A DNA stretch of 64,000 nucleotides, taken from Belliella pelovolcani (GTDB lineage: Bacteria; Bacteroidota; Bacteroidia; Cytophagales; Cyclobacteriaceae). Each line of letters opens with the position of its first letter. Positions within the stretch are counted from its first letter, which is position 1. Position numbers and translations under genes: made by a program. Location of the stretch: assembly GCF_900156785.1 (NCBI RefSeq), contig NZ_FTOP01000007.1, positions 62,001 through 126,000 on the forward strand, written 5' to 3'. Under the pieces are notes generated by a model. That model was not told the DNA's origin, made no database searches, and saw only the letters and a program-made list of their open reading frames with translations. Positions 35,761-61,861 of this stretch are shown here, in pieces.

Positions 35761-35771
35761 TTAATTTTAAA

Positions 35772-35802
35772 TTGCATACCAATAAAAAAAAGAATACTTT
35801 TG
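35772..35802 (+). promoter_or_regulatory. Promoter of the LacI regulator gene
   Basis: TTG at 35772-35774 and TACTTTTG at 35795-35802 are 20 bases apart, a full match to the Bacteroidota promoter, located about 80 bases before the ATG. Confidence 0.82.
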
Positions 35803-35883
35803 AAAAGGTCTTAAAGCTATTTTAAAAGGCTACCTGAGTAAAAAAACGCCAATATTTATCTAGAATAGGATTATCTGCAGGAA

Positions 35884-37463: not shown

Positions 37464-39584
37464 ATGAAATTCATTTATTCTCTTTTTTTGGTCATTTTGG
37501 TAAACCTTCAAGTCGTCGCTAATGATGGTTACAAATTATGGCTTCAATATTACCCCATTGAGCAAGCAGCTTCTTGGCAAGTATCAGCTCTTACAGATCA
37601 GAAAATCTTAGGCAACTCTCCTACCATTGATCTAATCAAAAAGGAGCTTGAGAATGCTAAGGCAATGCTTGAGCCGAATAAAAAAAAGCATCAAAAAGGT
37701 AATAACTTACTCATAGGTAAAGTTGGTGATCTCAACTTGAATCATATTCCTACTAGTCAGATTGAGCAGTTGACTGACGAAGGCTATGCCATATTCAATC
37801 ATATTGGGAGTCGTCAGCTGATCGTTACCTCCAAGACAGATTTGGGATTATTGTATGGTACTTTCAAAGTTTTGCAACTAATCCAAACAGGAAATAGCGT
37901 TTCAAACGAAGGCTTATTTGAATCTCCAAAAGTCAAACACAGGGTATTGAATCATTGGGATAATCTAGATAGAACAGTGGAGAGAGGGTATTCAGGTTTC
38001 AGTATATGGAATTGGCACAGGCTTCCTCGTCATATCGATCAGCAGTACCATGACTATGCAAGGGCTAATGCCTCTATAGGAATCAACGGAACGGTACTTA
38101 CTAATGTGAATGCCAATGCTCTTGTCCTTACACCTGAGTACTTAGAAAAAGTAAAGGCTCTTGCAGATGTTTTTAGACCCTACGGCATCAAAGTGTACTT
38201 GACAGCTAGATTTTCTTCCCCTATCGAAATCGGCAAACTACCTACTGCTGATCCTTTAGACTCAGAGGTACAATCTTGGTGGAATGAAAAAGCGAACGAG
38301 ATCTACCAATACATTCCAGATTTTGGCGGCTTTGTAGTCAAAGCAGATTCTGAAGGTCAACCTGGCCCACACAATTACAAAAGAACGCAAGCGGACGGTG
38401 CAAATATGTTAGCAGACGCTGTCAAACCACACGGTGGCATAGTCATGTGGCGTGCCTTTGTTTACAACGAGCATACGCCAGATGACAGACACAAGCAAGC
38501 TTACAACGAATTCAAACCCTTGGACGGGAAGTTTAAAGAGAATGTCATCGTGCAGGTAAAGAATGGTGCCATAGATTTCCAGCCAAGAGAGCCTTTCCAT
38601 CCTTTATTTGGTGCAATGCCTCAGACTCCTTTGATGATGGAATTTCAGATCACACAGGAGTATTTGGGTCACGACACCCATTTGGCATTTTTAGCACCAC
38701 TGTTTGAAGAAGTACTGAAAGCAGACACCTACACGCAAGGCAATGGAAGTGAAGTAGCTAAAGTGATAGACGGAAGCCTTCATGGTCATGACTTTACTGC
38801 CATGGCAGGCGTAGCTAACATTGGAACCGACAGAAACTGGACAGGCCATCATTTTCATCAAGCCAATTGGTTTGCTTATGGCAGACTGGCATGGAATCCA
38901 TATAGCTCTTCGGAAGAAATCGCAGAAGAATGGTTAAAATTGACTTTCACTTCAAATTCTGACTTTGTAAACCCTATCAAAAAAATGATGCTGAATTCTA
39001 GGGAAATGGTAGTAAACTACATGACTCCGCTAGGATTGCATCATATCATGGCGGAGAGCCACCACTACGGGCCAGGACCTTGGGTCACGGGAGGTAGAAG
39101 AGCGGACTGGACAGCCACCTATTATCACCAAGCATCAGAAGATGGGGTTGGATTTGACAGGACGAAAACAGGATCTAATGCGCTAGAACAATATGCCACA
39201 CCATTGCAAGAGGCCTGGGAAAGCCTTGAAACAGTTCCAGAAGAATACTTACTATGGTTTCATCATGTATCTTGGTCAGCGCCTTTGAAAAATGGCAAAA
39301 GCTTGTGGGATAATTTGGCACTTCATTACCAAAAAGGCGTAGACGAAAGCCGCGAAAACATTGCTATTTGGAAAAGTATGGAAAGGAAAATTGATCATGA
39401 AAGGTACACCCACGTACTATCATTCCTTCAAATACAAAATCAAGAAGCAATTTGGTGGAAAGACGCTTGTTTGACCTACTTCGGGCAGTTCTCTCAAATG
39501 CCTATTCCAGAAGAAGTGGAGAAACCGCTTCATGACTTGGAATACTACCAGCGCATCAAACCCAAAAATGTACCCGGAATCTAA
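37464..39584 (+). CDS. aguA: Alpha-glucuronidase, GH67, 706 aa
   Basis: The enzyme removes (4-O-methyl-)glucuronic acid from the non-reducing end of xylo-oligosaccharides. A signal peptide (MKFIYSLFLVILVNLQVVA) suggests export to the periplasm. The catalytic domain has 'FGGFVVKADSEGQPGPHNYKRTQADGANMLADAV' with the likely acid Glu and 'IVMWRAFVYN'. 'VKNGAIDFQPREPFHPLF' and 'MEFQITQEYLG' follow, with an Asp and Glu 28 residues apart, as for the two bases of characterised GH67 enzymes. The C-terminal helical domain includes 'YMTPLGLHHIMAESHHYGPGPW'. The length is right. It heads an operon with an SDR and a GH10. Confidence 0.96.
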   Translation: MKFIYSLFLVILVNLQVVANDGYKLWLQYYPIEQAASWQVSALTDQKILGNSPTIDLIKKELENAKAMLEPNKKKHQKGNNLLIGKVGDLNLNHIPTSQIEQLTDEGYAIFNHIGSRQLIVTSKTDLGLLYGTFKVLQLIQTGNSVSNEGLFESPKVKHRVLNHWDNLDRTVERGYSGFSIWNWHRLPRHIDQQYHDYARANASIGINGTVLTNVNANALVLTPEYLEKVKALADVFRPYGIKVYLTARFSSPIEIGKLPTADPLDSEVQSWWNEKANEIYQYIPDFGGFVVKADSEGQPGPHNYKRTQADGANMLADAVKPHGGIVMWRAFVYNEHTPDDRHKQAYNEFKPLDGKFKENVIVQVKNGAIDFQPREPFHPLFGAMPQTPLMMEFQITQEYLGHDTHLAFLAPLFEEVLKADTYTQGNGSEVAKVIDGSLHGHDFTAMAGVANIGTDRNWTGHHFHQANWFAYGRLAWNPYSSSEEIAEEWLKLTFTSNSDFVNPIKKMMLNSREMVVNYMTPLGLHHIMAESHHYGPGPWVTGGRRADWTATYYHQASEDGVGFDRTKTGSNALEQYATPLQEAWESLETVPEEYLLWFHHVSWSAPLKNGKSLWDNLALHYQKGVDESRENIAIWKSMERKIDHERYTHVLSFLQIQNQEAIWWKDACLTYFGQFSQMPIPEEVEKPLHDLEYYQRIKPKNVPGI

Positions 39585-39670
39585 TTTCAAATGCAATTCA
39601 ATCATAAAAGCTGAAAGCTTTGCACCCATTTGGAATTTAAGCAAAAGAAACCGCTTCAGACAATATTAAA

Positions 39671-40420
39671 ATGAGTCAAAATATACAAAAAGTAGCAATA
39701 GTCACTGGAGGAGGCTCAGGATTGGGGCTGGCTACTTCTGAGAAATTCGTCAAAGAGGGAATCAAAACCATCATCATAGGAAGAGATCCGCAAAAGCTAG
39801 CAGATGCTAAAGCAGCATTAGGAGAACTCATTCATCCAATAGTATATGATCTGAGCATTTTAAATGGCATCCCTGACCTCGTCACTTCCATTCAGCAAAA
39901 ATTTGGTCGCATAGACATTCTTGTAAATAATGCAGGAATCAATATGAAAAAGGAATTGATAGATGTGAGCGATGAAGACTTTCTCCAAGTCATCAATACC
40001 AATGTCTTGGCTGTATTTGCCATCAGTAGAGAAGTGAGTAAGGTCATGATCACCCAGCAATCAGGCGCTATAGTCATGATATCATCGATGGCTGCCAAAT
40101 ACGGCATCCCTAAAGTCATCGCATACACAGCTGCCAAATCTGCCATAGAAGGTATGACCAAAGCAATGGCCGTAGAACTCTCCCCTCAAGGTATCCGGGT
40201 TAATTGTGTAGCGCCTGGATTCATTGTGACAGAAATGTCATCAAAAGCACTTAATAATGACCCGGAAAGGAAAAACAAAGTCCTAGGACGTACGCCCATG
40301 GGATTTCTTGGAGAGACTATGGATGTCGCTGAGGCTGCCTATTATTTCGCAAGTGACGCTTCTAAGTATGTCACTGGTGCATCATTAGCAGTAGATGGAG
40401 GAAATTCCATCGGATTCTAA
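39671..40420 (+). CDS. SDR-family dehydrogenase, probable D-mannonate oxidoreductase, 249 aa
   Basis: This classical short-chain dehydrogenase has the cofactor motif 'AIVTGGGSGLGLATSEKF' at residues 9-26, 'DILVNNAGIN' and Ser in 'GAIVMISSMAAKYG'. The catalytic 'Y-T-A-A-K' and 'NCVAPGFIVTEM' follow. It lies between GH67 and GH10 in a LacI-controlled operon whose divergent partner encodes UxuA. No UxuB homologue is seen in the window. Reduction of fructuronate to mannonate is therefore the most sensible role, but this is context-based; substrate specificity cannot be read from the sequence. Confidence 0.85.
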   Translation: MSQNIQKVAIVTGGGSGLGLATSEKFVKEGIKTIIIGRDPQKLADAKAALGELIHPIVYDLSILNGIPDLVTSIQQKFGRIDILVNNAGINMKKELIDVSDEDFLQVINTNVLAVFAISREVSKVMITQQSGAIVMISSMAAKYGIPKVIAYTAAKSAIEGMTKAMAVELSPQGIRVNCVAPGFIVTEMSSKALNNDPERKNKVLGRTPMGFLGETMDVAEAAYYFASDASKYVTGASLAVDGGNSIGF

Positions 40421-40449
40421 ACACTACCCAGAAACAAACCTATAAACCT

Positions 40450-41568
40450 ATGAAAAACCTAAAATTAAGCAGTTTAATAATCCTCCTAACTTTGTTCTCT
40501 TATGGTGTCAAAGCCCAAGGACTAAAAAATAGCTATGAAGGAATCTTTGATATTGGAGCTGCCATAGATCAACGTCAAGTCAACGGTAATGGCAAAGACC
40601 AAATTGCTCACTCCATTTTGGCAAAACATTTCAATAGCATCACTCCAGAAAACTTGATGAAATGGGGATCCATTCACCCTAGACCCAATACTTACAACTT
40701 TGAACCAATGGATAAATTGGTAGATTTGGCTGAATCCATAGGAGCGAGAGTCGTTGGTCATACACTGGTATGGCATAATCAAACACCAAACTGGGTATAT
40801 GAAAATGAGCAAGGAGAGCGATTAGATGGTCCAGCACTAATCCAAAGAATGGAAGATCACATCACAGCAATCATGTCAAGGTATAAAGGGCGCGTTTTTG
40901 CTTATGACGTAGTCAACGAGGCTATTTTTGACAATGGTGAATACAGAACCTCAAAATGGTATGAAGCTACAGGAACAGAGTTTATAAAAAGAGCATTTGC
41001 CAAAGCGGAAGAAATTGATCCAGATGCAGAACTATACTACAATGATTACAACATGTGGAAACCTGCAAAAAGAGAAACAGCTATCGCACTTGCCAAGGAA
41101 ATCCGAGAAGCAGGCATTCGCATAGACGGAATTGGTTTGCAGGGACATTATGGACTTGAATCTCCTTCTTTAGAAGAGATTGAAGCTTCGATCTTAAGGA
41201 TCGCAGAAGAAGGTTTCAAAGTAATGTTCACTGAAGTAGATATTGACGTTCTTCCTAATCCCGTCAATAGACATGGTGCAGACATCGATGCTACCTTTGA
41301 ATTTGAAGAGCAATATAATCTCTACACAGATGGACTTCCTGCAGAAATCCAAGAAAAGCTCGTCAAGAGATATGCTGAACTATTCGAATTATTCAAAAAA
41401 CATGAAGACAAAATTACCAGGATAACCTACTGGGGGATCCATGATGGAGGCAGCTGGCTCAACAATTGGCCAATGAGAGGACGAACTGCTTATCCTCTGA
41501 TTTTTGATAGAAATTATCAGGAAAAACAAGATATCATCCAAGTCCTTCACGAAATTGCAGCCAAATAA
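40450..41568 (+). CDS. Endo-1,4-beta-xylanase, GH10, 372 aa
   Basis: A signal peptide (MKNLKLSSLIILLTLFSYGVKAQ) is followed by a single GH10 TIM barrel. The acid/base Glu157 is in 'AYDVVNEAIFD' and the nucleophile Glu262 in 'MFTEVDIDVLP'. Other family blocks are 'NSITPENLMKWGSIHP', 'GHTLVWHNQTPNW', 'YYNDYN', 'GIGLQGHY' and 'ITYWGIHDGGSWL'. It cuts the xylan backbone or xylo-oligosaccharides. No carbohydrate-binding module is attached, and it lacks a lipobox, so it may work in the periplasm next to the GH67 enzyme of its operon. Confidence 0.96.
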   Translation: MKNLKLSSLIILLTLFSYGVKAQGLKNSYEGIFDIGAAIDQRQVNGNGKDQIAHSILAKHFNSITPENLMKWGSIHPRPNTYNFEPMDKLVDLAESIGARVVGHTLVWHNQTPNWVYENEQGERLDGPALIQRMEDHITAIMSRYKGRVFAYDVVNEAIFDNGEYRTSKWYEATGTEFIKRAFAKAEEIDPDAELYYNDYNMWKPAKRETAIALAKEIREAGIRIDGIGLQGHYGLESPSLEEIEASILRIAEEGFKVMFTEVDIDVLPNPVNRHGADIDATFEFEEQYNLYTDGLPAEIQEKLVKRYAELFELFKKHEDKITRITYWGIHDGGSWLNNWPMRGRTAYPLIFDRNYQEKQDIIQVLHEIAAK

Positions 41569-41665: not shown

Positions 41666-43570
41666 GTGCGACGTTTCATCTTTATATTCTACTTTGTCTT
41701 TGCATCGAGTTTGTATATACAAACACTTGCAAATGAACTATCTGACACTAGAACCAAAATAGTGATCAAAGATGGCGTATCCCATGTCAAAATAAGCCAA
41801 ATGCTGGACTTTTACCTTGACACTGCTTCACAATTCCCAATCAATACAATCGCTTCTGAATCATTCCAAATTAATTTCAAACCAGTTACAGATGCTCATA
41901 TTCTATATGATTATCTTGATTCTGATATATGGGTTAGAATGACTGTGACCAACGAGCATCAATCTGAGGGTCATTCATTATACTTTGAATCCTGGGGATT
42001 TGATATCAAGAAAATCTCCTTCTACTATCCAAATCCTGATGGCTCCTATTCAGAAAACGAATCAGGTTTTTCACTGCCATTCTACAAAAGAAAACTTAAG
42101 CACAAGAACTTCAACTATTTCTTGGATCTCAGACCTGGGGAGACTAAAACATATTACCTGAAAATAAATAGAAGCTATAATCAAGAATTTAGCTTTCATA
42201 TCAGAACAAATGAAAAATTCTTAGCACATTCATGGAATGAATACTTCATGCTTGGGATTTATTATGGCGTATTGGTTTTGATATTTATATTCAATTTATA
42301 CCTCTTTATCAAACTAAGAGATTCTCTTTACCTGTATTTTATTGGATTGATTTTCGCGTGTATTCTGTTTTCACTAGGAAGAGATGGAATAGGTTTTCAA
42401 TACTTGTGGCCCAATGCTCCTTGGGTCAATCGCTTCAACAACGCGAATGTGATAGAGCTTCTAATCATCGTGGCAACACTCTTATTTTCAAATAGGTATA
42501 TTCAAAAATACACTAAAAGTGATCGAGTTTTTAAAATGACATTTTGGGCAGTATTAGTCAAGCTTCTACTTTTTGCAAGCCAAATCTACATCTACGAATT
42601 GTATTATATTACATATCTCGTCTTTACAATTTTGATATTGCTAATCCCATTTTCAATGGGCTTATATATGCTTATCAAGTCAAAGATTTACTCTTGGTCT
42701 TATGTATTTGCTTATGCTTGTCTGTTCTTAGTGATCGTTTATTCCTATTCGAAGAGCATCAATCTTTTCAACAATTCAGTTCTCAATTGGTATTTTGTGT
42801 ACTTCATCATCTTCTTAGAAATGATTCTTTTTTCATTCTCAATATTTAATCAATTTAAATTTTTGCAAGATGACTTTATCAAAGCTAATCGTGAAAAGAC
42901 TTTGGTTTTAGAAAAGAACAACCAACTAACACAGGAACTCAATAGCAAGCTGAAGAAAAAAGTCAAAGCAAGGACAGAGAAAATAGAAAAAATGGCAGCT
43001 GATCTTGCCCAGAAAAATGTGGAACTCCAGACTACCAACCTCAAGCTTCAGGAGCTAAATGCTCAGGTCACTCAGATGAATAAGTTACTAGAGGAAAACA
43101 ACAAAGAGCTCAGAATGAGTGTGGAAGTGACCACGAAAGACCTTGCCTTGATGAAAGGGCTAGATTTTGAAAACTTCAAAAAGGTATTCCCAGATAAAGA
43201 GACTTGCTATCAGTTCCTTTCGGAATTGAAATGGAAAGATAATTACCATTGCAAAAAATGTGGCTATAACAAATACAGTGAAGGCCCTGTCTTTAGCAGA
43301 AGGTGTAGAAATTGCAATTATTTGGAATCACCTACGGTGGACACTTTATTTCACAAACTCAAATTCCCAATTGAAAAAGCATTTTATATTCTCTACTTAT
43401 CAAATCGAAAAGATGTAGACTTAACGCTGAGCGAACTTTCAGAAATCTTGGAACTCCGAAGAGAAACCTGCTGGGCTTTCAAAAATAAAATAGCTCAAGC
43501 CATGGAAAAAGTGGATCACAACAAGGACCTGAATGGTTGGGAGTCATTGGCCTTGGTGCATTTGGAGTAA
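41666..43570 (+). CDS. 7TM-DISM sensor fused to coiled coil and IS1595-type transposase zinc ribbon, 634 aa
   Basis: Order of parts: signal peptide (about 1-22); extracytoplasmic 7TMR-DISMED2-like beta domain (about 30-175; 'DSDIWVRMTVTNEHQSEGHSLYFESWGFDIKKISFYYP'); seven TM helices (about 185-400); a long coiled coil (about 405-495; 'TEKIEKMAADLAQKNVELQTTN'). A C-terminal domain starts near 498 with 'DFENFKKVFPDKETCYQFL' and contains the zinc ribbon Cys529-x2-Cys532...Cys547-x2-Cys550. It ends with a helical, HTH-like 'LTLSELSEILELRRETCWAFKNKI'. That domain resembles the N-terminus of IS1595 transposases, but no DDE nuclease follows. The start is GTG 41666. It should sense something outside and act on DNA or a partner at the membrane. 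Its place between two xylan clusters suggests a sugar-related signal. Confidence 0.88.
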   Translation: MRRFIFIFYFVFASSLYIQTLANELSDTRTKIVIKDGVSHVKISQMLDFYLDTASQFPINTIASESFQINFKPVTDAHILYDYLDSDIWVRMTVTNEHQSEGHSLYFESWGFDIKKISFYYPNPDGSYSENESGFSLPFYKRKLKHKNFNYFLDLRPGETKTYYLKINRSYNQEFSFHIRTNEKFLAHSWNEYFMLGIYYGVLVLIFIFNLYLFIKLRDSLYLYFIGLIFACILFSLGRDGIGFQYLWPNAPWVNRFNNANVIELLIIVATLLFSNRYIQKYTKSDRVFKMTFWAVLVKLLLFASQIYIYELYYITYLVFTILILLIPFSMGLYMLIKSKIYSWSYVFAYACLFLVIVYSYSKSINLFNNSVLNWYFVYFIIFLEMILFSFSIFNQFKFLQDDFIKANREKTLVLEKNNQLTQELNSKLKKKVKARTEKIEKMAADLAQKNVELQTTNLKLQELNAQVTQMNKLLEENNKELRMSVEVTTKDLALMKGLDFENFKKVFPDKETCYQFLSELKWKDNYHCKKCGYNKYSEGPVFSRRCRNCNYLESPTVDTLFHKLKFPIEKAFYILYLSNRKDVDLTLSELSEILELRRETCWAFKNKIAQAMEKVDHNKDLNGWESLALVHLE

Positions 43571-43820: not shown

Positions 43821-44660
43821 TTACTTAAACACTAATTGTGCAAAGAAATACAGCTCATTTTTCCAATACTTAAAGTCATGGTAGTGATTGGGAAGGATTC
43901 GGTAGGAATGGGGAATACCTTTTTCTGTTAAGAACTCATGCGCCCCTGTGGTCACATTTATTAAATTATCCTTATCTCCACAACTCAAAAACAATAACTT
44001 CAAATTAGACTTAGTCACGTCAGGCTTAGAGAGTAAAGCATCTCCCTTCTTGGTATTCGGAGCTGGAGAAAAAGCACCGATCCATGCAAAATGCTCTGGA
44101 TTGCCTAATCCAAAATTCATGGATTGTCCACCGCCCATCGAAAGACCAGCAACAGCTCTATTTTCCACCCCAGGCTTCACTTTATAGTTCTTTTCAATAA
44201 AAGGAATCAAGTCCTTCAACAAATCATCTTCAAAAGTAGTGAATGCTTTTACCGGTTCAGCTCCGAAAATATCACCTTCTGCACGATCATTTTTCATAGC
44301 ACGACCATTCGGCAACACAATAATCATAGGCTTAGCTTTATTGGAAGCATAGAGATTATCCATAATGACATGTGGAGTGCCTTGATCTAGCCACTCACGC
44401 TCGTCTCCACCTATGCCATGCAGCAAATAAAGCACAGGATACGCTTGATTTGGATTATAATTCGGCGGCAGGTAAATATTCGCTTTTCTATCGACTCCGA
44501 CTGTTTGGGAGGGATACATAAACTCTTTGACTTCGCCTTGTGGATTGCCAGATACAGGCCTATCAAAGCCCTCTGGTGCAATCAAGTGATCTGATTGCCC
44601 ACTTGGCAAATTTGAAATCGCCAAGCTGAGCAATATAGCCGTAATTTTAAGTGCTTTCAT
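43821..44660 (-). CDS. Esterase, CE1/esterase D family (feruloyl or acetylxylan esterase), 279 aa
   Basis: A signal peptide (MKALKITAILLSLAISNLPSG) precedes an alpha/beta hydrolase. 'ANIYLPPNYNPNQAYPVLYLLHGIGGDEREWLDQG' carries the oxyanion region, and the nucleophile Ser174 is in 'AVAGLSMGGGQSM'. The likely Asp is in 'LFLSCGDKDNLI' and the His in 'LPNHYHDFKYWKNELYFFAQ'. This pattern is typical of Bacteroidota CE1 enzymes in xylan loci that remove ferulate or acetyl esters. It lies between two 28-bp direct repeats and next to a Uma2 remnant, so it may have been inserted or moved as a unit. Confidence 0.88.
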   Translation of the reverse strand: MKALKITAILLSLAISNLPSGQSDHLIAPEGFDRPVSGNPQGEVKEFMYPSQTVGVDRKANIYLPPNYNPNQAYPVLYLLHGIGGDEREWLDQGTPHVIMDNLYASNKAKPMIIVLPNGRAMKNDRAEGDIFGAEPVKAFTTFEDDLLKDLIPFIEKNYKVKPGVENRAVAGLSMGGGQSMNFGLGNPEHFAWIGAFSPAPNTKKGDALLSKPDVTKSNLKLLFLSCGDKDNLINVTTGAHEFLTEKGIPHSYRILPNHYHDFKYWKNELYFFAQLVFK

Positions 44661-44741
44661 GGGTTGTTTGGATTTATTTATTGTTGATTGTATTAGTTTT
44701 TTGCCACTAAGTCACGAAGACACAAAGGGAGGCTTATTTTT

Positions 44742-44769
44742 GATTTTAGCCCCAAGGGATCGGGGAGAT
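44742..44769. repeat. 28-bp direct repeat, copy B
   Basis: GATTTTAGCCCCAAGGGATC followed by GGGGAGAT matches copy A at 43576-43603 at 26 of 28 positions. Just before it (44703-44729) is the string GCCACTAAGTCACGAAGACA, a type of non-coding debris often seen near decayed genes in this phylum. Confidence 0.65.
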
Positions 44770-44820
44770 TTTAGATTTATGGCTATCGATTCGAGCATCT
44801 TGGTTTTTATCACTATACGT

Positions 44821-44853
44821 AAACCTTCGAGGTTTTTGAAACCTCAAAGGTTT
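44821..44853. repeat. 33-bp palindromic element
   Basis: AAACCTTCGAGGTTT-TTG-AAACCTCAAAGGTTT is a 15-bp inverted repeat with one mismatch. It lies in the non-coding stretch after the Gfo/Idh gene (stop 44865) and could terminate that transcript, or it may be a copy of a dispersed palindromic repeat. Confidence 0.6.
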
Positions 44854-44864
44854 GTCTCTATCTA

Positions 44865-46349
44865 TCACAATTTATAATATTCTTCCCAACCTTTTCTTGG
44901 AGGGGTTCCGTTGAGTAGTTCGTTAGCTACTTTATTATTTGTGATTACTTTTTTCTTTCTGTCAAATTTGAGGTTTGTATTCATCTGTTGCGCAAGCACG
45001 CCCAAAGAGAACACCTGACTCAGTGGTCCAGTCACCTCAAATGGTGATCTTGTCTCTTCTTCTCCTTTTACCGCTAGCAAGAAATTGGCGAAATGATTGG
45101 AAGAACTTTTGGGCACCTCTGGAAGACTGCTTTTCATGTCATTGGCTGCTTCTTCTGGAATGATAGAAAGCGTACTACCGTGAGACCCTCCTTTGAACGT
45201 AAGTTCTTTGCTGTAAATGATTTTTCCAGGATTCAAGGTTCGCTGCTCAATCTGACCAGTCCCAGCCGCAGGTATATCAGCACTCAATTCAGAAACTCCG
45301 TATCCTTCGGGTAAAGTTGGTAAATTCTCCAAACCATCATACCAAGTCACAGTAACTGCTGGCATTTCATTTCTTTTGGGGAATTTAAAATCTAGTGTAG
45401 TTGCCTGTGGGAAAAATAAGGGGTTATGACCGTCTAGTTTAACTGCATTGATTTCCTCAGGAAGACCCAAATCCAGATATCTATGAAAACTATCCATGAT
45501 ATGCGCGCCCCAGTCTCCCAAAGCACCCATCCCAAATTCATACCAACACCTCCACTGACCATTGGCAAAATCCTTATTGAAATCATGATGCTCAGCTGTC
45601 GTGAGCCATAAGTCCCAATCCAATGTTTCAGGAATTGGCTCAGCTTGAGGATAAGTACTCATGCTAGTATCCCATCCGTGCCACCTTCTCCTGCTGTTCA
45701 TATGGCAGGCAATGGAGGTTACATCCTTTATAATACCCGCGTCCTTCCATGCTTTAAATTGGAAGGAATTGGCTTCTGAATGCCCTTGATTTCCCATTTG
45801 TGTAACCACTCCATATTTCTGAGCTGCTTGCATCAATAATTCATTTTCCTGAAATGTCCTCGCAAGAGGCTTTTCTACATAGACTGGCTTTCCGGATTTC
45901 AAAGCATGCATGGTAATCGGGAAATGCGAAAAATCAGGTGTACAAATGACCGCTGCATCAAACTGAACTTCGTTTTGATCAAAAAGCGCTCTGAAATCCT
46001 TGAATCTTTTAGCATTTGCGTGCTTTTCCATGATTCTAGTCGTATGCGGAGCACCCATATCTACATCACAAAGTGCGACTACATTGGATAATCCTGTTTT
46101 ATCAAAATCATTGATCACTTGCTCTCCCCTATTTCCTATACCAATACAGGCAAGATTTACTCTATCACTTGGAACCTTGGATGCCATTTGAACAATTTCG
46201 CCAGCTTTGTTTCTGATTTCTGGTTTGGAAAAAAGTACATGACTAGGAATGATGTGTATCGCTCCTAAAGCCAGGGCTCCTTTTTTCAAAAACCCTCGCC
46301 TTGAAGGCTCTTGAAATGACTGTTCTTTATTCAATTCTTCATTTTTCAT
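44865..46349 (-). CDS. Tat-exported Gfo/Idh/MocA family oxidoreductase, 494 aa
   Basis: Starting at ATG 46349, the N-terminus has a twin-arginine signal, 'SRRGFLKKGALALGAIHI'. The Rossmann domain follows: 'VNLACIGIGNRGEQVINDF', 'VVALCDVDMGAP', 'DAAVICTPDFSHFPITMHALKSGKPVYVEKPLARTFQEN' with the EKP motif, and 'VTQMGNQGHSEANSF'. The C-terminal part is the family's beta-sheet substrate domain. Tat-exported members of this kind are common in Bacteroidota sugar loci and probably carry bound NAD(P). The substrate is unknown; an oxidised or modified sugar from the xylan decoration is plausible. Confidence 0.9.
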   Translation of the reverse strand: MKNEELNKEQSFQEPSRRGFLKKGALALGAIHIIPSHVLFSKPEIRNKAGEIVQMASKVPSDRVNLACIGIGNRGEQVINDFDKTGLSNVVALCDVDMGAPHTTRIMEKHANAKRFKDFRALFDQNEVQFDAAVICTPDFSHFPITMHALKSGKPVYVEKPLARTFQENELLMQAAQKYGVVTQMGNQGHSEANSFQFKAWKDAGIIKDVTSIACHMNSRRRWHGWDTSMSTYPQAEPIPETLDWDLWLTTAEHHDFNKDFANGQWRCWYEFGMGALGDWGAHIMDSFHRYLDLGLPEEINAVKLDGHNPLFFPQATTLDFKFPKRNEMPAVTVTWYDGLENLPTLPEGYGVSELSADIPAAGTGQIEQRTLNPGKIIYSKELTFKGGSHGSTLSIIPEEAANDMKSSLPEVPKSSSNHFANFLLAVKGEEETRSPFEVTGPLSQVFSLGVLAQQMNTNLKFDRKKKVITNNKVANELLNGTPPRKGWEEYYKL

Positions 46350-46422
46350 CTTAGTTGTTATTCGGTTGATACCTAAAAAAACAAAAACATGCAATTTGAA
46401 AATACACTATACCATATCAATG

Positions 46423-47532
46423 CTACCTTCTAATCAATTTCTGAACTTCCAAGTATGCAGGTTTTGGCTTCAGCTGTTCGTCCAACAAAAACGGAAAATG
46501 CCTTCTTCCAGGTCTATCCAACCAAGTGACATCATCTCCAATACCCCAAAAGGTTACCCCAGTGATGATATCACTGTAATCTAGGAGTATTTTCATGATC
46601 ATAGGGTAGGCGATTTTTTGCCTTAAATTGAAGGCGTCTGTATAAACTTCAGATCCTGGTTCATCACTAGATAAATACACCGACAAATCCAACTCTGTGA
46701 TTTGAATTTCTACTCCCAAGTCTCTAAACAAATCTAAAGTTGTACGAATATCTTGCTCTGAAACACCCACATTCCAATGACCCTGTAGCCCTACCCCATC
46801 GATTGGGATATTATTATCTTTTAACCTCTTGACTAGATCATAAATCTTATTTCGCTTCCAACTGAAAATGGAGTTGTAATCATTATAAAACAACTTCGCA
46901 TCTGGATCGGCTCTTCTCGCATAGACAAATGCTGAATCTATGTAAGCGGGTCCCATGATCTTATACCAGGGAGAATCTTCCCTGTAGATGATCTGACCAT
47001 TTGGATCCCAATCAAACATGGCCTCATTCACCACATCCCAAGCATACACATCCCCTTTGTAACGAGACACCACAGTAGTAATATGCTCTTCCAATTGCTT
47101 CATGGCAACCTCAGGCGTATGTAGGTCTCCATTTTCATCGTAAAAAAACCAATCAGGTGTCTGAGAATGCCAAGTCAAGGTATGACCTCTTACCTTCATA
47201 TCATTCTCCTTTGCAAACTGGACAATTCTATCTGCATTGGTCCAAGTATAGGTTCCTTTGACACGCTGCAAAGCGTCAGGCTTCATTACGTTTTCGGCAA
47301 CCAAACTATTGAAATGCTCGATCAAAGTTCGCCCATGCGGCGTGCGTGAATCCATATGGTTGGGTGTAACTGCTGCTCCAATCGGGAAATGATCTTTAAA
47401 TAACTCTTTCAAAGGTATATATTCCCTATCATCATTGACTGGATCTGGAGTAATATCTTCAGGCGAAGAACAACTAATGATCAGCAGCATAATAGCCACC
47501 AACATTGAAAAGTGACACGTGTAATTTTTCAT
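46423..47532 (-). CDS. Endo-1,4-beta-xylanase, GH10 lipoprotein, 369 aa
   Basis: The N-terminus 'MKNYTCHFSMLVAIMLLIISCSS' has a lipobox with Cys21, so the enzyme should be lipid-anchored, perhaps on the cell surface. The GH10 barrel has acid/base Glu170 in 'AWDVVNEAMFD' and nucleophile Glu280 in 'EIQITELDLSV', along with 'GHTLTWHSQTPDW', 'FYNDYN', 'GVGLQGHW' and 'GVTFWGIGDDVTWL'. It is distinct from the non-lipoprotein GH10 at 40450 and the partial one at 63559, so this region has three GH10 genes for different places or substrates. Confidence 0.95.
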   Translation of the reverse strand: MKNYTCHFSMLVAIMLLIISCSSPEDITPDPVNDDREYIPLKELFKDHFPIGAAVTPNHMDSRTPHGRTLIEHFNSLVAENVMKPDALQRVKGTYTWTNADRIVQFAKENDMKVRGHTLTWHSQTPDWFFYDENGDLHTPEVAMKQLEEHITTVVSRYKGDVYAWDVVNEAMFDWDPNGQIIYREDSPWYKIMGPAYIDSAFVYARRADPDAKLFYNDYNSIFSWKRNKIYDLVKRLKDNNIPIDGVGLQGHWNVGVSEQDIRTTLDLFRDLGVEIQITELDLSVYLSSDEPGSEVYTDAFNLRQKIAYPMIMKILLDYSDIITGVTFWGIGDDVTWLDRPGRRHFPFLLDEQLKPKPAYLEVQKLIRR

Positions 47533-47609
47533 TTGTGGTCAAAGTTTAATGGTACTCTTTTTAATTTTTTACTCTTTTGAGATTTAGCAGCTTAGACAAC
47601 TTCTATCTT

Positions 47610-48980
47610 TTATTTTGTAAATCTCCAATAATCGAAATACAGGATATTACTTGATGCTTTGCCTTTGAATACAAAATACAGATCATGTACTCCGCTAACA
47701 TTTGCAACATCCCCACTCACGACCGCCCATCGATCGTCCCCTCCGGTCAACGGAACAGAAACCTCCGTCAACAATTGACCCTCTTTGCTTCCTACTCTAA
47801 CTTCCATACTGACACCACCATTATGTGTCGTCCCTACCCTAGCGTAGAACTTGCTAGGCCCTTGATCACGAAAATCAACACCTACTACTTTGATATAAGA
47901 TTCGTTTGTAGTTGCTGTCACAAAATTCCCAACCACAGCATTACTTTTTGCTTTGACACCTTCGGACCAAGCAATCGTTTCTGCTTCATTTTTCACATAA
48001 GGATTGATTGAGCCCAGACTTTTAGTAATGCCTGCTGTCATTTTCATGGGCTTAATCGTCCCATCCGGATTAAATTCCACTTCCTCCACTGCCACGGACC
48101 GAGTAAATCCACTACCGCCGGGAAGTGCTCCATTATGGTAAAACAGAAAAGTCTTCCCTTTGAAATCTATAATCCCAGGATGATTGGTAAAGCTTCTGCC
48201 TTCAGCAGGCATCAATACACCTTGATATGTCCAAGGACCTAGAGGACTTGGACCGGTTGAATAGCCGATGTGCTCAGGTAGTTCTCCTCCCGCAAACAGC
48301 AGGTAATACAAATCATTACGTTTATACATCCAAGGACCTTCTTCATAGGTAGTTGGTCTTCTAGGATCCTCTGCTTTTCTTTTTCCGAAAGATTCCACCG
48401 TATTGGGGAATTGCCCGATTTCACCATCAATAGAGATCATATCCTCATTGAGCTTGACATAGTAGCAGACCGGATTACCCCAATAAATGAATGCCTGCCC
48501 GTCATCATCAATAAAAACAGCAGGATCAATATCTGCACTGCTATTACTGATCAATGGCTTACCTAGTGGATCAATAAAGGGCCCATAAGGACTATCCGAT
48601 ACCGCTACACCAATCCCGTTCCTATTATTCAAATCAGTGACGGGTACATACAGAAAAAACTTACCATTTCGCTCTATGGCGTGTGGAGCCCAAGCATTGA
48701 TTTTCCCCCATTGGAAGTCCTTGTAAGAAAGTACCGATCCATGGTCTGTCCAGTTGACCATATCTTCCGTAGTATATAGTCTCCAATCATTCATCGTAAA
48801 CCAGGTAGACTCTGGCTCATCATGGGAGGTGTATAGATATACCTTATCATTGTACACTAAAGGAGCAGGATCTGCAGTGTATGACGCTTGGATAATCGGA
48901 TTTTGTGCCCAAACACTAGTACCCAGCAAAAAGCTGTAAATCAAAGCCGTGATATATTTTCTAACCATTATCATTTTCAT
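47610..48980 (-). CDS. GH43 glycosidase with C-terminal CBM6, 456 aa
   Basis: A signal peptide (to about residue 25, ...GTSVWAQ) is followed by a five-bladed propeller. Catalytic acids are the base Asp in '[12 protein letters not shown]', the pKa-modulating Asp in '[19 protein letters not shown]' and the acid Glu in '[22 protein letters not shown]'. The last ~130 residues ('[20 protein letters not shown]' to '[22 protein letters not shown]') form a CBM6 beta-sandwich, which binds xylan chains. Likely arabinofuranosidase or xylosidase. Met codons at 48974 and 48968 are alternative starts. It ends 77 bases before the GH10 gene at 47532. Confidence 0.93.
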
Positions 48981-48987
48981 TCACTTA

Positions 48988-50994
48988 TCATTCATGATTA
49001 GTCAAAACAAAGCCTCCATTCGATTGAATAGTGACTGTAAACTCTCCATTTTTCCCAACCTCCACTGTTTGCAAGGTTGGCTGCTTGGCTTTATCATCGT
49101 TGTAAAGCAAAACCTTTTTCCCTTGAAACATCGGCAGCTGTAACTTCACTGTTTGCGGCGTTTTCTCAGCGTTGACACCAGCAATGTACCAATGCTCTCC
49201 CAATCGTCTGCCTATTACACTGTACTTACCTGGATATCCTGCGATATAGCGGGTTTCATCCCATGTAGTCGGTAACTTTTTCAAAAAATCCAAGACAAAT
49301 GGCTCAACTTCTTCCAAATTGTTTGGAGTCAATCCAAACATTTGTACCGGGTTTTGAAAGAGCACTCCTGTCGCTAACTGGAATACATCAGTGGTTAAGC
49401 GCTCTTGTCCTTGACGATTGCCTTTGTTAAGAAACTTGTTGAGCAACACTCCCCCATACTCCATGCTTGCGACGGAATTTCGAATAAATGGATGAAGCGT
49501 GGCATAAAAGGCCTCTTTTTCCCGAGTATCCTGAACAAAAATCAACATTTCGGAAGCTATGACTGCTTCGCTCCCAACAAAGTTAGGGTACATACGCTCC
49601 CAACCTCTCGGCAAGGTTGCGCCATGGAATATGATCATCAATTCATGCTCATTCGCTTCTACGAGTATGTCTTCATACAAGCGCATGGTTTCTTGCTTAT
49701 CCCCACCAAAAAAGTCTACTTTTAATCCTTTAACACCCGCTGCTTTTAGCCACTTCATTTCCTTTTTTCTAGCGAATGAAGTATTCATTTTATGCAAAGG
49801 GGTTTGAAAAGCATCGTTTACCGTACCATTAGAATTGTACCAAAGAAACACATCTACGTCTTTACTATTTGCATAGCGAATCAACTCCTCCATTCGATCA
49901 TATCCGATTCTTTCATCCCACCATGCATCGATCAAAATGTATTCAAAACCCATGGCAGCGGCCAGATCAATGTAGGCTACCTGATCTTCGTAATTCATAC
50001 TATTGTCCTGCCACACAATCCAACTCCAAGTACCTTTTCCAAACTTATAGTTAGTAGATGGCTTATACAAAGGATCTACTACATCATAAGGAATGGTAGT
50101 TTCAACAATTGGCTTCAGAGAATTCCCTAAAGTAATTGTTCTCCAAGGTGTATAGCTTGGAAGCCCCAATTGCGCTCCCGAACTACCAAAACCATTGTTT
50201 TGCGCTGCTTGAGGATAAGCCACTGTATAAACTCCTTCCTGAATAGCACTCAAATGTGAAGCTGTATAATTGCTGCCCACCCCTGTCTCAGACAAAAGAA
50301 CCCAGCCATCATTCCCGATTTTGAACAAGCTGGGAAAAACATACCCCAAAGGGGCATTGGTGTTTGCTATGGGTTCATCAGCTACATATCCACTTTCATA
50401 GCTTGGAGCAGTTCGTGCAAACCCTGTCATTGGGCGCATCATGTTGGACAAAAATGCTGTGGAAGCTGATGGAAACTTATAGCCAGTAAGTTCTCTTTCC
50501 ACCACTATCCCCTTGGTTTCTCCCCACATGGGCAGCTCATATCGAAAGGCTATATCATTGTCACTAACTTGAAAATGAACCGAAATCTCTTGATCTGCAC
50601 TGTTTTTTACAGTGTATGTTAGGGTATTTGCGTGGTACTGAATAAAGGATTGCTTGATTCTGTCTTGGGTATAAGATTTCTTTTCCTCTCCTGTATTGGA
50701 TTTAACAAATGATAATTCTTGAGTAAACGACCCTGCATTCGTTACCAATCCCAAAGGAGATTTTTCCAACATAGATTTCTGCTCAAAGGTTACCGAATAG
50801 AATATTTTACCCTCCTCCAGAAATACCAGGACACTAACTTGACCATTAGGGCTATCTACCTTGGCTTTTTCTTGAGCATAGGCAAGGGATGGTCCAAGGA
50901 GACACAGAAGTACTAGAAAAGCTCCAAGTTGCCTATTGATCCCAAGTGGAATTTTCCTAAAGAATCTATTTACAAAAAGACTATCGAACTGCAT
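48988..50994 (-). CDS. GH97 alpha-glucosidase/alpha-galactosidase, about 668 aa
   Basis: The GH97 plan is visible: an N-terminal beta-sandwich ('AKVDSPNGQVSVLVFLEEGKIFYSVTF'), a TIM barrel ('YILIDAWWDERIGYDRMEELIRYANSKDVDVFLWYNSNG', 'GLKVDFFGGDKQETMRLYEDILVEANEHELMIIFHGATLPRGWERMYPNF') and a C-terminal sheet. The Asp of 'KVDF' fits retaining GH97 galactosidases better than the inverting SusB glucosidases, but this is tentative. ATG 50994 is preferred: it overlaps the upstream GH43 by 14 bases and precedes a signal peptide (LGAFLVLLCLLGPSLAYAQ). A longer frame to 51105 would overlap by 125 bases. It could remove alpha-galactose from complex xylan. Confidence 0.88.
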   Translation of the reverse strand: MQFDSLFVNRFFRKIPLGINRQLGAFLVLLCLLGPSLAYAQEKAKVDSPNGQVSVLVFLEEGKIFYSVTFEQKSMLEKSPLGLVTNAGSFTQELSFVKSNTGEEKKSYTQDRIKQSFIQYHANTLTYTVKNSADQEISVHFQVSDNDIAFRYELPMWGETKGIVVERELTGYKFPSASTAFLSNMMRPMTGFARTAPSYESGYVADEPIANTNAPLGYVFPSLFKIGNDGWVLLSETGVGSNYTASHLSAIQEGVYTVAYPQAAQNNGFGSSGAQLGLPSYTPWRTITLGNSLKPIVETTIPYDVVDPLYKPSTNYKFGKGTWSWIVWQDNSMNYEDQVAYIDLAAAMGFEYILIDAWWDERIGYDRMEELIRYANSKDVDVFLWYNSNGTVNDAFQTPLHKMNTSFARKKEMKWLKAAGVKGLKVDFFGGDKQETMRLYEDILVEANEHELMIIFHGATLPRGWERMYPNFVGSEAVIASEMLIFVQDTREKEAFYATLHPFIRNSVASMEYGGVLLNKFLNKGNRQGQERLTTDVFQLATGVLFQNPVQMFGLTPNNLEEVEPFVLDFLKKLPTTWDETRYIAGYPGKYSVIGRRLGEHWYIAGVNAEKTPQTVKLQLPMFQGKKVLLYNDDKAKQPTLQTVEVGKNGEFTVTIQSNGGFVLTNHE

Positions 50995-51943
50995 GGACTC
51001 CCTCCTTTGTTTGAATGACTTTTTGAATCGTTCCATCCTCATTATAGTACATGTAGTCAATACAAATTGACCTCCTATAGCTTCCTCCAGTCGGTAATGC
51101 ACCATTATGGTAGAAGAAATAATCCTTACCCTTGTAGGAAATCACCCCAGGATGAACAGTGAAACTATTAGGCACACTTTCCATGATCGTTCCTTTATGT
51201 TCCCAAGGCCCTTCCGGACTTGAAGAAATCGCATAATCTATTTGTTCCGCTTTTTCTCCTTTGCTGGCATACAATAAGTAATACAAATCATTGCGCTTAT
51301 ATACCCAAGGACCTTCTATAAAATTTTCAGGATTCAAATAATTGATTGGCCCATCCATTTCTATCATGTTATCTTTCAGCTTTGCCCATTTAAGACTTCC
51401 ATTACCCCAATAGATATAAGCTTGACCATCATCATCGATAAATACAGCTGGGTCAATATCATCCCATCCATGTTCATTATCCTTGGTCATTTCATTGACC
51501 ACCAATGCTTTTCCAATTGCATCTACAAATGGCCCTGTTGGACTATCAGCTACGGCCACACCAATTGCTGCCCCTCCTTGACTATTTTCATCTTGTTTGT
51601 GAAATGTGGAGACGTAAAAGTAAAATTTACCATCTCGCTCTGTGCAGTGGGCGGCATAAGCATCTCCTGTAGCCCAAGAAAAGGTTTTGGGTGACACAGG
51701 AGCTCCTCTATATTCCCACTTGACCATATCTGTGGATGAAAAGACCAACCAGTCCTTCATTTCATAATTGGTCGAGGTGACAGAGGCTGTATCATGGCTA
51801 GTGTACAGATACACGGTATCCTTGTACACAATCGGCGCTGGATCAGCTGTAAAAAAGTCATGGATAATAGGGTTCTGCGAAAAGCCTGTATGAAAATAAA
51901 GACTGAACGCTATTGTTAACATAAATTTGAAGACTATTTTCAT
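50981..51943 (-). CDS. GH43 glycosidase without CBM, 320 aa
   Basis: A signal peptide (MKIVFKFMLTIAFSLYFHTGFSQ) precedes a single five-bladed propeller. Catalytic residues are in '[22 protein letters not shown]' (Asp base), '[21 protein letters not shown]' (Asp) and '[23 protein letters not shown]' (Glu). It is closely similar to the catalytic domain of the GH43-CBM6 protein at 47610 but ends right after the propeller. It is upstream of GH97 with a 14-base overlap. Probable arabinofuranosidase or xylosidase. Confidence 0.93.
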   Translation of the reverse strand: MKIVFKFMLTIAFSLYFHTGFSQNPIIHDFFTADPAPIVYKDTVYLYTSHDTASVTSTNYEMKDWLVFSSTDMVKWEYRGAPVSPKTFSWATGDAYAAHCTERDGKFYFYVSTFHKQDENSQGGAAIGVAVADSPTGPFVDAIGKALVVNEMTKDNEHGWDDIDPAVFIDDDGQAYIYWGNGSLKWAKLKDNMIEMDGPINYLNPENFIEGPWVYKRNDLYYLLYASKGEKAEQIDYAISSSPEGPWEHKGTIMESVPNSFTVHPGVISYKGKDYFFYHNGALPTGGSYRRSICIDYMYYNEDGTIQKVIQTKEGVHAVR

Positions 51944-51968
51944 GTGGTTTAGGTTTGAGAGTTGGAAG

Positions 51969-52044
51969 AAACTTTCCCAGAGTTTTAAACTTTGGGAAAG
52001 TTTGAGTTTAGTTAATCTTTCATCTTTTAGGCTGAAAGATTAAC
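51969..52044. other. Two tandem perfect hairpins between GH43 genes
   Basis: AAACTTTCCCA/TGGGAAAGTTT (51969-51979 with 51993-52003, 11 bp) and GTTAATCTTTCA/TGAAAGATTAAC (52011-52022 with 52033-52044, 12 bp) lie between the stop at 52056 and the start at 51943. Neither is followed by a long T-run on the minus strand. They may stabilise or separate parts of the long mRNA rather than end it. Confidence 0.65.
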
Positions 52045-52055
52045 CATTTAGAAAC

Positions 52056-54155
52056 TTAGTTGAATTTCACTTGATACCTTTTGATTACCCCCCGATAATC
52101 ACAAGAAACTATTGCTACCCCATCCTTATCTTTGGCTTGCTCAATCGAAATTTTCACACCAGGATGATCTGATTTCGCTGTTACTTTTGGACTTGTTGCA
52201 ACTTCTTTAAGACTAGCTTTTACTTCGTAAAGGTCATAGCCAACAATACCATTTTCATTCGTAGATCTTACAGGAGTAGTTGGGACTTCCACCGCTTGTC
52301 CATTGACCGCAATGCTAATCTGAGGAGAAACAGGTCTATTCAGTTTTTTACCTTTCGCACTAAAACCCAATCCAAGTAATTCGAATAATCCTTCATCAGA
52401 ATCTGCCTCAGCAACTAAAAAAATAGCATGTTTTCTATCCAATTGATCCACATATTGCGCCACATCGATAGTAAATTGAGTGGGTTCCTGCTTGGCCTTG
52501 GCAGGGATCTCGATTACACCAATTTTAGTTCCTTTCCACGTATCATTTGCATAAGGACCATCTAGCCACACATTGACTTTGAAGGCTTTATCTGTCTTAG
52601 GAGTGAGGAATAAGTTGAAAGCTGTTTGATTTCCCTCTTTGGTACCTTCGAATGCTTTCAAGCCCCATTTATCTTCTGCCAAACCACCAAAACCAAAGTA
52701 TTTGTAGCCGACGATGTGCCCGTTTTTCACTGGAGCTATGGACATGTGGTTATCCCAGATATCCCATGAATCTTGTTGAATGCTGATATCTGACAAGTAA
52801 GCTGCATAGCCTGCGGAATAATAACGATAAGGATCTAAGCCGAAGACATGAAATCCTTCTGAGGTCACTTCAGCTCCTGTGTATTCTCTACCTTCACTAT
52901 CTTTGGCTGTCCACTGTTGATTTGGCGCATACGGGTCAAAGGCACGGATTCTAGCACCACCACCTTCTGCTACAGGTGTTTCATCCACTTCAATTGTGAT
53001 CGGAGCCACTACAGGCTGACGAGCAAACCCAAAGCCTCTTGGTGGCTTATGATAAAACACATACCATTGGCCGTTGATCTCTTCTATACTTCCATGGGTA
53101 TTGTGCCCTCCATTGGTCAGAATAATTGCAGATCCATCTCCATTTAAAACAGGACCTCTCGAATCGACCAAAACCCCTCCACTTTTCCATGGTCCCAGAG
53201 GGGAGTCTCCTACGGCATACCTCAACGTTGAGTTGGTGCTGCTTACTCCATATTCAGGACCAGAGTAGCCACTAAATACAGTGATGTATTTGTTCCCTAC
53301 TTTTCTGATAGAAGAAGCTTCAAAGAAATTAAAAGCACCCAAATCTTCCCCTTCGTAAATAGCTGGGTAAGTTGTCCCAGCAGGATCTCTCAATGCTCCA
53401 TATCGACTACTTGCTGGTAAAAAGTAAGGGATTACTTCGGTGCCAGGTCTCAGAGAATACATTGTATTTTGATCCAGCTCTGCTGCTAAAGACCTCTGAA
53501 AGCCCCAAAATCCGTAGGCCCTGAATCCAATTTCGTAATCAGGATCATTTGGATCCGTGATATAATCGATGTAAACCGCTGGGTCAAATCCTAAAATACT
53601 TCCAGGAACAGTTCTGCGGCCATCTTCAGTCATATTGATCGGCGTGAAAGGTCCATCAGGCCTAGATCCTTTGGCAACCATTGCCTCTCTGCCTGGGCCT
53701 CTACTGTGTGGGTACAAATAGTATTCTTTAGTACCATCCTTGCGTTTGACTTCGACCAAATCTGGGGCATACATCACATCCCATTGGCCATCTATCTCAT
53801 AAGTAAAAATAGCCCCCTCATCTCTCCACTGAGTCAAATCTTCTACGGGTGCTGACCACATTCGAATATCCGGGCCACAATAACTATCAAACCTCACATC
53901 ATGTGAACCAATGATATAAGCACGGTATTTACCAGGGTTATCTGGGTCTTCAAAAACCCGTGGTTCTCCATCGGGCACATGTTCCCAAAGAGGTAAATAC
54001 GGGTTACCTGGTATTGTATGGACATATTTTCCATCTTGGATAAGACTAGATTGGGTTTCCTCTTGGGCACAGGATATAGATGCAGATATGATGACCAATC
54101 CAAACGCTAATTTCATTAAGCTTTTCCCAACAGAGAAACGTGATAACTTTTTCAT
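52056..54155 (-). CDS. GH43-like five-bladed propeller lipoprotein, 699 aa
   Basis: The N-terminus contains 'LMKLAFGLVIISASISCAQ' with a lipobox Cys, so it should be lipid-anchored. Residues from about 60 to 400 resemble a GH43/GH-F propeller: 'PGNPYLPLWEHVPDGEPRVFEDPDNPGKYRAYIIGSHD', 'YCGPDIRMWSAPVEDLTQWRDEG', 'GFDPAVYIDYI', 'NFFEASSIRKVGNKYITVFSGY' and 'NTHGSIEEINGQWYVFYHKPP'. The Asp in GFDPAVYID and the Glu in FFEASSIRK are candidates for catalysis. About 280 further residues form extra domains with no clear match. It resembles less-studied GH43-type proteins; the activity is not known. Confidence 0.75.
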   Translation of the reverse strand: MKKLSRFSVGKSLMKLAFGLVIISASISCAQEETQSSLIQDGKYVHTIPGNPYLPLWEHVPDGEPRVFEDPDNPGKYRAYIIGSHDVRFDSYCGPDIRMWSAPVEDLTQWRDEGAIFTYEIDGQWDVMYAPDLVEVKRKDGTKEYYLYPHSRGPGREAMVAKGSRPDGPFTPINMTEDGRRTVPGSILGFDPAVYIDYITDPNDPDYEIGFRAYGFWGFQRSLAAELDQNTMYSLRPGTEVIPYFLPASSRYGALRDPAGTTYPAIYEGEDLGAFNFFEASSIRKVGNKYITVFSGYSGPEYGVSSTNSTLRYAVGDSPLGPWKSGGVLVDSRGPVLNGDGSAIILTNGGHNTHGSIEEINGQWYVFYHKPPRGFGFARQPVVAPITIEVDETPVAEGGGARIRAFDPYAPNQQWTAKDSEGREYTGAEVTSEGFHVFGLDPYRYYSAGYAAYLSDISIQQDSWDIWDNHMSIAPVKNGHIVGYKYFGFGGLAEDKWGLKAFEGTKEGNQTAFNLFLTPKTDKAFKVNVWLDGPYANDTWKGTKIGVIEIPAKAKQEPTQFTIDVAQYVDQLDRKHAIFLVAEADSDEGLFELLGLGFSAKGKKLNRPVSPQISIAVNGQAVEVPTTPVRSTNENGIVGYDLYEVKASLKEVATSPKVTAKSDHPGVKISIEQAKDKDGVAIVSCDYRGVIKRYQVKFN

Positions 54156-54220
54156 AGAATAGGTTTATTCGTGATATTTTTATTTCTATTGCTAGACTTT
54201 TGACAAATCTTTGAAGCTCA

Positions 54221-55153: not shown

Positions 55154-55204
55154 AACAAGATCATTTTACTGGGTTCAACATGTGCATTAAATCAAATCTT
55201 CGTG

Positions 55205-56944: not shown

Positions 56945-57031
56945 TTCTAATTAATTATCTGAAATTTCAATTCTTGATTCTAAATTGCTCTTTTTAACTT
57001 GTTCTTTATATTTAACTTACCCTTCTATACA

Positions 57032-57907: not shown

Positions 57908-57919
57908 AATAGGTTGGAA

Positions 57920-60436: not shown

Positions 60437-60457
60437 GATTCGTTGACTTAAGTTTTT

Positions 60458-61855: not shown

Positions 61856-61861
61856 ATACAC

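Follow-up and report, generated by a model that had tools for sequence, protein, structure and literature searches.

A gene of Belliella pelovolcani codes for a membrane sensor of 634 aa fused to an IS1595-type zinc ribbon and HTH-like segment (hereafter the reader), and the product is probably a membrane-held one-component regulator of a xylan utilization locus, with its reader on paired DNA sites and most likely activating. The gene lies at positions 41666 to 43570 of the window, the whole analysed stretch of 64,000 nucleotides from contig NZ_FTOP01000007.1. The fusions as a class look like a widespread family of PUL regulators that share a transposase-derived reader and whose operator can be predicted.

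The fusion protein, its locus and its relatives

The domain plan proposed in the first-pass annotation, namely a signal peptide, a DISMED2-like domain, seven membrane helices, a coil and a zinc ribbon with HTH, was recovered by Pfam, NCBIfam and AlphaFold. The proposed loss of the transposase nuclease was likewise borne out, as the Pfam scan gave no match to the DDE_Tnp_IS1595 domain in the window protein. The features are:

41666..43570 (+): whole gene, membrane sensor fused to IS1595-type reader, 634 aa, GTG start (ORF with Pfam and NCBIfam)
41666..41743 (+): signal/anchor helix at the N-terminus, residues 1-26 (AlphaFold helix 2-26)
41798..42202 (+): 7TMR-DISMED2 outer domain, residues 45-179 (PF07696, E 6.5e-25)
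42239..42844 (+): membrane domain of seven helices, residues 192-393 (PF07695, E 1.9e-28; helices in the AlphaFold model)
42845..43093 (+): coiled-coil stalk, residues ~394-476 (AlphaFold single helix 371-476; coil judged from sequence)
43193..43321 (+): zinc ribbon with Cys529/532/547/550, residues 510-552 (PF12760, 18.9 bits; Cys conservation)
43361..43537 (+): HTH-like segment, residues 566-624 (NF033547, 25.2 bits; AlphaFold helices 569-579, 588-595 and 599-615)
37464..41568 (+): genes immediately before the regulator, for GH67, a short-chain dehydrogenase-like protein and GH10 (Pfam for the two GH families; dehydrogenase named from sequence)
43821..63430 (-): portion of the convergent xylan locus that falls inside the window, with GH10, GH97, GH43, GH95 and others (profiles)

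The matches to PF07695 (100.2 bits) and PF07696 (88.1 bits) both exceeded the curated Pfam cut-offs. The receptor half of the profile searches was thus confirmed, whereas the IS1595 half fell short in the window protein. Zn_ribbon_IS1595 matched residues 510-552 with an E value of 0.0015 and 18.9 bits, short of the curated cut-off (25.4), and NCBIfam transpos_IS1595 matched residues 566-624 with 25.2 bits, below its cut-off of 75. From the window protein alone the transposase assignment is sub-threshold. No histidine kinase, receiver or AraC domain was detected in it by Pfam at E values up to 1, and an NCBIfam histidine-kinase match over the coil was weak (14 bits against a cut-off of 342). 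The AlphaFold model of the full-length protein (mean pLDDT 85.8, residues 468-497 below 50) consists of a signal helix, a beta outer domain, membrane helices, one helix spanning residues 371-476 and a ribbon/HTH module. The reader modelled alone reached a mean pLDDT of 87.5; with this model Foldseek returned no solved PDB structure at E <= 0.001, and the best profile matches of the reader to the PDB were weak, with partial HTH and ribbon matches only.

The assignment becomes firm on account of the relatives, as two other fusions pass the Pfam ribbon cut-off (L112 with 25.5 bits and L218 with 32.1 bits) and complete transposases reach ~50% identity to the domain in the window protein across ~115 aa. 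The latter, L062 and L064, carry both the ribbon and the DDE domain above the cut-offs; the DDE_Tnp_IS1595 domain was also found in L067, L068 and L075. Similarity between reader and transposases stops just ahead of the first Asp of the DDE part, which we take to be the catalytic residue. Cys529, 532, 547 and 550 were invariant in all 52 aligned readers, six of them from transposases, and in all 49 full-length fusions, and the ribbon Cys, KW, T and HTH positions were invariant or nearly so across the readers of fusions and transposases. By sequence, the window reader is clearly homologous to full IS1595 transposases. The first-pass annotation had held that unconserved cysteines or a lack of any transposase profile match would speak against such descent; the cysteines turned out to be invariant and some relatives pass the profile.

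The expectation that similar fusions exist in related genomes was also correct, with 83 available for a comparison of surroundings and 84 in a reader tree. Searching with the last 136 residues gave matches in 71 of 146 related genomes, those listed being mainly membrane proteins of ~600-730 aa or proteins of ~300 aa; the corresponding figure for the whole protein, 115 of 146, takes in receptors without the reader. The long frame G103:C6 and fragments such as G135:C55, C74 and C208 were left out of the reader set. A relative from Echinicola pacifica (Cyclobacteriaceae, Cytophagales) showed 62% identity in the best segment. Among the matches listed were orthologues with 71-75% identity from six of the seven other members of the genus that were searched, and orthologues with 60-71% identity from additional genera. 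More distant fusions (~30% identity) occurred throughout the family and order; again among the matches listed, L264-L270 extend them to three families that belong to other orders of the class.

The order of the GH67, dehydrogenase-like and GH10 genes beside the regulator is conserved within the genus, and xylan genes (GH67, GH10, GH43, GH115) lie beside the regulators of the window clade. The convergent xylan locus runs past the window to two susC/susD pairs, ~26-36 kb from the regulator. Its first genes form a susC-susD-susC-susD run that is followed on the same strand by GH10, GH43 and others down to position 43821, where the locus meets the regulator end to end. Two further arrangements were observed. 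In the window (34167-36915), a LacI-family gene (35884-36915, +) is divergent from a UxuA-like mannonate dehydratase gene that is followed by transporter and sugar kinase genes, likely an intracellular uronate branch of the xylan locus. In five genus members (L082, L083, L084, L085 and L087) a pair of genes for proteins of 101 and ~412 aa, the larger HipA-like, lies just downstream of the regulator, a place where the pair is not found in the window.

Association with susC and a paired motif

The first-pass annotation had considered a polysaccharide-related signal possible, and this link was borne out by susC genes near the fusions, by the xylan genes beside the window clade and by a paired DNA element. 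The neighbourhood survey that it called for compared 83 fusions with 20 7TM-DISM proteins that lack the reader; one of these controls lies beside a fusion. A susC-like gene was found within 3.1 kb of 44 of the 83 fusions, compared to none in the stretches around the 20 controls, most of which belong to other families, some of these poor in SusD genes. In 31 of the 83 the gene followed on the same strand at a distance of 213-588 bp, and in seven it was divergent within 900 bp; 39 had no susC within 3.1 kb, and 16 of the 83 had less than 3 kb of flank on one side. The genomic background of SusD is a fairer yardstick than the 20 controls. At least 485 SusD matches were counted in 29 genomes, with 15-48 per genome in six of the eight genus genomes with most. 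This corresponds to approximately one SusD per 290 kb of summed genome size, such that a SusC within 3 kb would be expected at ~4% of random places and at about twice that share in the genus. Because the profile for SusC was made from proteins of this analysis, it may miss distant SusC.

SusC and SusD of representative loci were confirmed by profiles. Among the fusions profiled that have no near susC, L116 lies by GH81, L135 by GH64/GH5 and L124 by a sugar kinase, and no susC was present in the stretches examined around three fusions of genome G237 that carry Reg_prop sensors. Two of the seven fusions of other orders directly adjoin susC.

Expectation-maximisation on 31 regulator-susC intervals gave a common motif, ATTGTTATTAAAGCGTAATA (17.7 bits), at a log-likelihood of 190.9, compared to 58.4-69.2 in six Markov-shuffled sets. 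Taking the second-best site anywhere in the interval, two direct copies in the same orientation were found 64-66 bp apart in 21 of the 25 intervals whose best site reached 13 bits, the six of 31 below this value having been left out of the spacing count. The pair was not imposed, because the search modelled one site per interval, although second copies may have weighed slightly in the motif matrix. In two-fold cross-validation, whose halves hold related genomes and are for this reason not fully independent, significance at 0.05 was reached by 22 of the 31 held-out intervals and missed by nine, and in 14 a second site lay 63-67 bp away. Exact copies of the core 13-mer TGTTWTTWAAGCG numbered 26 in 19 genomes that had been picked for carrying such intervals. 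Nine of these occurrences fell within regulator-susC intervals and the other 17 equalled the 17 of a reversed control pattern, meaning that an excess over control existed only at intervals beside fusion genes.

Pairs were also seen in other orders, at 76 bp ahead of susC in L270 and at 77 bp in L266, which is not next to susC. L265 had one site, L267 (next to susC) a weak pair at 91 bp and L268 a weak pair at 90 bp, and no motif site was found near L264 or L269. In the window's own family L272 had a weak pair ahead of susC, spaced by 65 bp, and no site was found at L271, which is next to susC, or at L273.

A TAnnTTTG box at fixed distance from the motif was considered and rejected, as the box was present in five of the 31 intervals and its distance was not fixed. 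Separately, palindromes of the form AAWCGWTT, which have the look of LacI operators, were observed in 16 of the 31 intervals (for example L103, L108, L109 and L113), compared to a mean of 2.06 and a maximum of 8 in 300 shuffles. The susC promoters with this palindrome may have a second, LacI-type control.

Predicted operator and proposed mode of action

No site between genes was returned when the window was scanned with the main-clade matrix. Among members of the window clade, sites with the core TTTAAGCGCAAT or TTAAGCGAAAT were found in divergent intervals between the regulator and GH10 or susC (an unassigned frame in L099). There were seven such contexts, and their scores are no test of the clade matrix because it was built from their sites. 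A related site precedes the xylan susC in all seven genus genomes examined. The clade matrix, built without the xylan susC promoters, picked one block upstream of the xylan susC as best in six of the seven, at 12.8-14.0 bits; the value for the seventh, G001, was 10.8 bits. Aligned across the seven genomes the block reads approximately GAAAATCAAnnnGTTnAnnTAAGCGAAAT, with TAAGCGAAAT unchanged. In four genus members a second copy follows 89 bp on and then the -7-like element TATATTTG, which we take to be the promoter box. This footprint within the genus is weaker evidence than the distant intervals, since orthologous promoters share sequence anyway.

For the genome of the window itself, ~91 kb were scanned with a matrix that combined the sites of the other six genus genomes with the clade matrix. 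The site of the xylan susC ranked first at 17.7 bits, ahead of a site of 16.4 bits inside an open frame, and its partner copy at 89 bp was weak. The candidate is:

80006-80025 in window coordinates, outside the window (-): predicted operator of the xylan susC run, candidate (matrix scan; 563 bp before the first susC)

A mode of action can be proposed from these elements. The outer DISMED2/7TM part would sense a signal, most likely a xylan-derived oligosaccharide, which the membrane helices and the coiled-coil stalk would relay, probably within a dimer. The two reader modules of such a coil-joined dimer would hold both direct-repeat sites upstream of the susC promoter, and binding of the ligand to the outer domain would alter the hold of the reader on these sites, most likely activating the promoter. 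The observed spacings, 64-66 and 76-77 bp, correspond to roughly six and seven turns of DNA.

Three other accounts were weighed against this one. Conceivably the fusion binds the sites but represses, or just tethers the locus to the membrane and releases it with ligand; the sign of regulation is unreadable from sequence, and transposase readers bind without activating anything. We nevertheless regard this as unlikely, because the genus sites lie upstream of TATATTTG, which is where an activator would be placed. SusR, moreover, which is described with a similar spacing in the accessible text of PMC3878776, activates.

It is quite improbable that the paired motif is bound by another protein, such as a LacI-type regulator or a sigma factor, while the fusion acts elsewhere or by contact. 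A LacI-family gene is present in the window locus, and the enrichment of AAWCGWTT in the susC intervals (16 of 31, shuffled mean 2.06) suggests that more than one regulator operates there. That palindrome, however, differs in sequence from the paired motif, the core 13-mer exceeded its control only beside fusion genes in the 19 genomes, and related sites recur near fusions of other orders (L266 and L270).

A reader that has lost DNA binding, remaining as a relic or as a protein- or RNA-contact module, would fit the lack of a solved structure at E <= 0.001 in Foldseek and the weak PDB profile matches. This is very hard to reconcile with the ribbon Cys, KW, T and HTH positions that are kept in fusions and transposases alike, or with a dedicated motif next door to the fusion genes. 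Regulation of the xylan locus by a membrane-held activator on paired sites stands as the preferred reading.

Origin of the reader and comparison with known systems

A tree of 140 readers was calculated from 154 columns by a quick method; it is unrooted and has several long branches. A single branch with an SH-aLRT support of 99 has 84 fusions and L080 on one side and 47 IS1595-type transposases and eight short frames on the other. As one branch parts fusions from transposases, a single domestication of a transposase front end is the simplest account. Together with the invariant cysteines and the homology to full IS1595 transposases, this tree bears out the transposase-derived reading of the first-pass annotation. 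The reverse, in which IS1595-type transposases of the phylum took their reader from membrane regulators, is formally compatible with an unrooted tree in which each group holds one side of the branch but is highly improbable, since IS1595 is known well beyond the phylum and transposases with the reader occur in two families where no fusion was seen (matches in 14 of 56 genomes at E 0.01 and in 55 of 123 at E 1, those with E < 1e-10 being frames of at most 352 and 421 aa). No fusion of ~600 aa was present among the matches with E < 1e-10 in these two families searched with the reader.

The reader also occurs under other sensors. In genome G237, three proteins of ~1000 aa each (L218 4403-7396, L219 7826-10873 and L220 3874-6909) have Reg_prop and Y_Y_Y sensors joined to the same coil and reader, and lack a kinase, receiver or AraC domain. 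Of the three, just L218 has a ribbon that exceeds the Pfam cut-off; the ribbon of L219 scores lower than this and that of L220 is unlisted, the reader of L220 having been found by a profile built in this analysis. L080 (1107-1817), of ~236-238 aa, has a likely single membrane helix at its N-terminus together with a coil and the reader, and is located ~33 kb away from a 7TM fusion of that genome. These cases indicate that the reader has been moved between sensors. As a separate observation, genome G575 (L254-L262) holds, among the matches listed, nine divergent IS1595-type transposase matches whose readers score approximately as high as those of the fusions.

The ends of the transposons were compared with the predicted operators. 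The nearest IS1595 elements end in repeats resembling TTGAATWAGGCRYTTRT (L062, L064 and L193) or GCTTTAGGCGYAAA (L254, L255 and L260), and a single base separates the end core TWAGGC from that of the operators, TWAAGC; in the best pair noticed, L255 against L098, 11 of 12 positions agree. Arms were picked by their left/right match alone and their core score was then compared to column-permuted matrices. For eight near elements the resulting fractions were 0.011 with the window-clade matrix and 0.116 with the main-clade matrix, and for four far elements they were 0.143 and 0.60. Since two matrices and two groups were tried, the kinship is suggestive only. Scanning of the transposon flanks gave p <= 0.05 at the end repeats in few cases (the left end of L254 and both ends of L255, window-clade matrix). 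We consider kinship of operators and transposon ends a possible lead rather than a result. A broader scenario is put forward as tentative, and on balance we doubt it: the regulators of the Cytophagales and some other lineages of Bacteroidota would form a class of one origin, their operators would copy or descend from element ends, such that reader and binding site alike would have been domesticated, and the reader would later have come under other sensors. SusR, with its long-spaced repeats, may belong to the same line.

Compared to known systems, the fusion would share with HTCS the control of polysaccharide loci. HTCS carry Reg_prop and Y_Y_Y sensors, as do the three G237 relatives, but unlike HTCS the window fusion has no kinase, receiver or AraC domain match. 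With IS1595 transposases it shares a homologous ribbon and HTH-like segment, ~50% identical to the nearest, and it differs from them by lacking the DDE domain, by the membrane receptor in front and by falling into a separate clade. With 7TMR-DISM receptors it has the DISMED2 and 7TM domains in common, its output being an IS1595-type reader. The general design of a receptor joined to a DNA-binding domain is known, as 7TMR-DISM proteins with a ChiS-family DNA-binding domain are described in the accessible text of PMC8092284; what sets the fusion apart is a module of transposase origin. A search of the literature, most subscription journals excepted, returned no description of a 7TMR-DISM protein joined to a zinc-ribbon transposase reader, nor any paper that links 7TMR-DISM to the use of polysaccharides. 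If the proposed function is true, the fusions would constitute a common and apparently undescribed class of polysaccharide-utilization regulators in the Cytophagales with a likely operator at hand, and their targets and substrates would be predictable from the pairing of gene and site. They would also provide a clear bacterial case in which the DNA reader of a transposase has become what a membrane receptor acts through.

The SusR-like proteins (BT3705 and paralogues) resemble the fusion in being membrane proteins with an outer sensor and an inner DNA-binding part, a predicted one in the fusion, at susC/susD loci, and the inner part of SusR activates the starch genes (PMC3878776, as far as its accessible text goes). 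According to the same text, the domain by which SusR binds DNA showed no resemblance to any other known factor. The predicted sites of SusR are direct repeats 67 or 77 bp apart, read there as dimers on one face of the DNA (PMC3878776, accessible text); compared by description, those of the fusions are spaced by 64-66 and 76-77 bp and those of four genus members by 89 bp. If the proposed function is true, the long-spaced direct repeats of the fusions would parallel those predicted for SusR and would make this odd arrangement testable in a second system.
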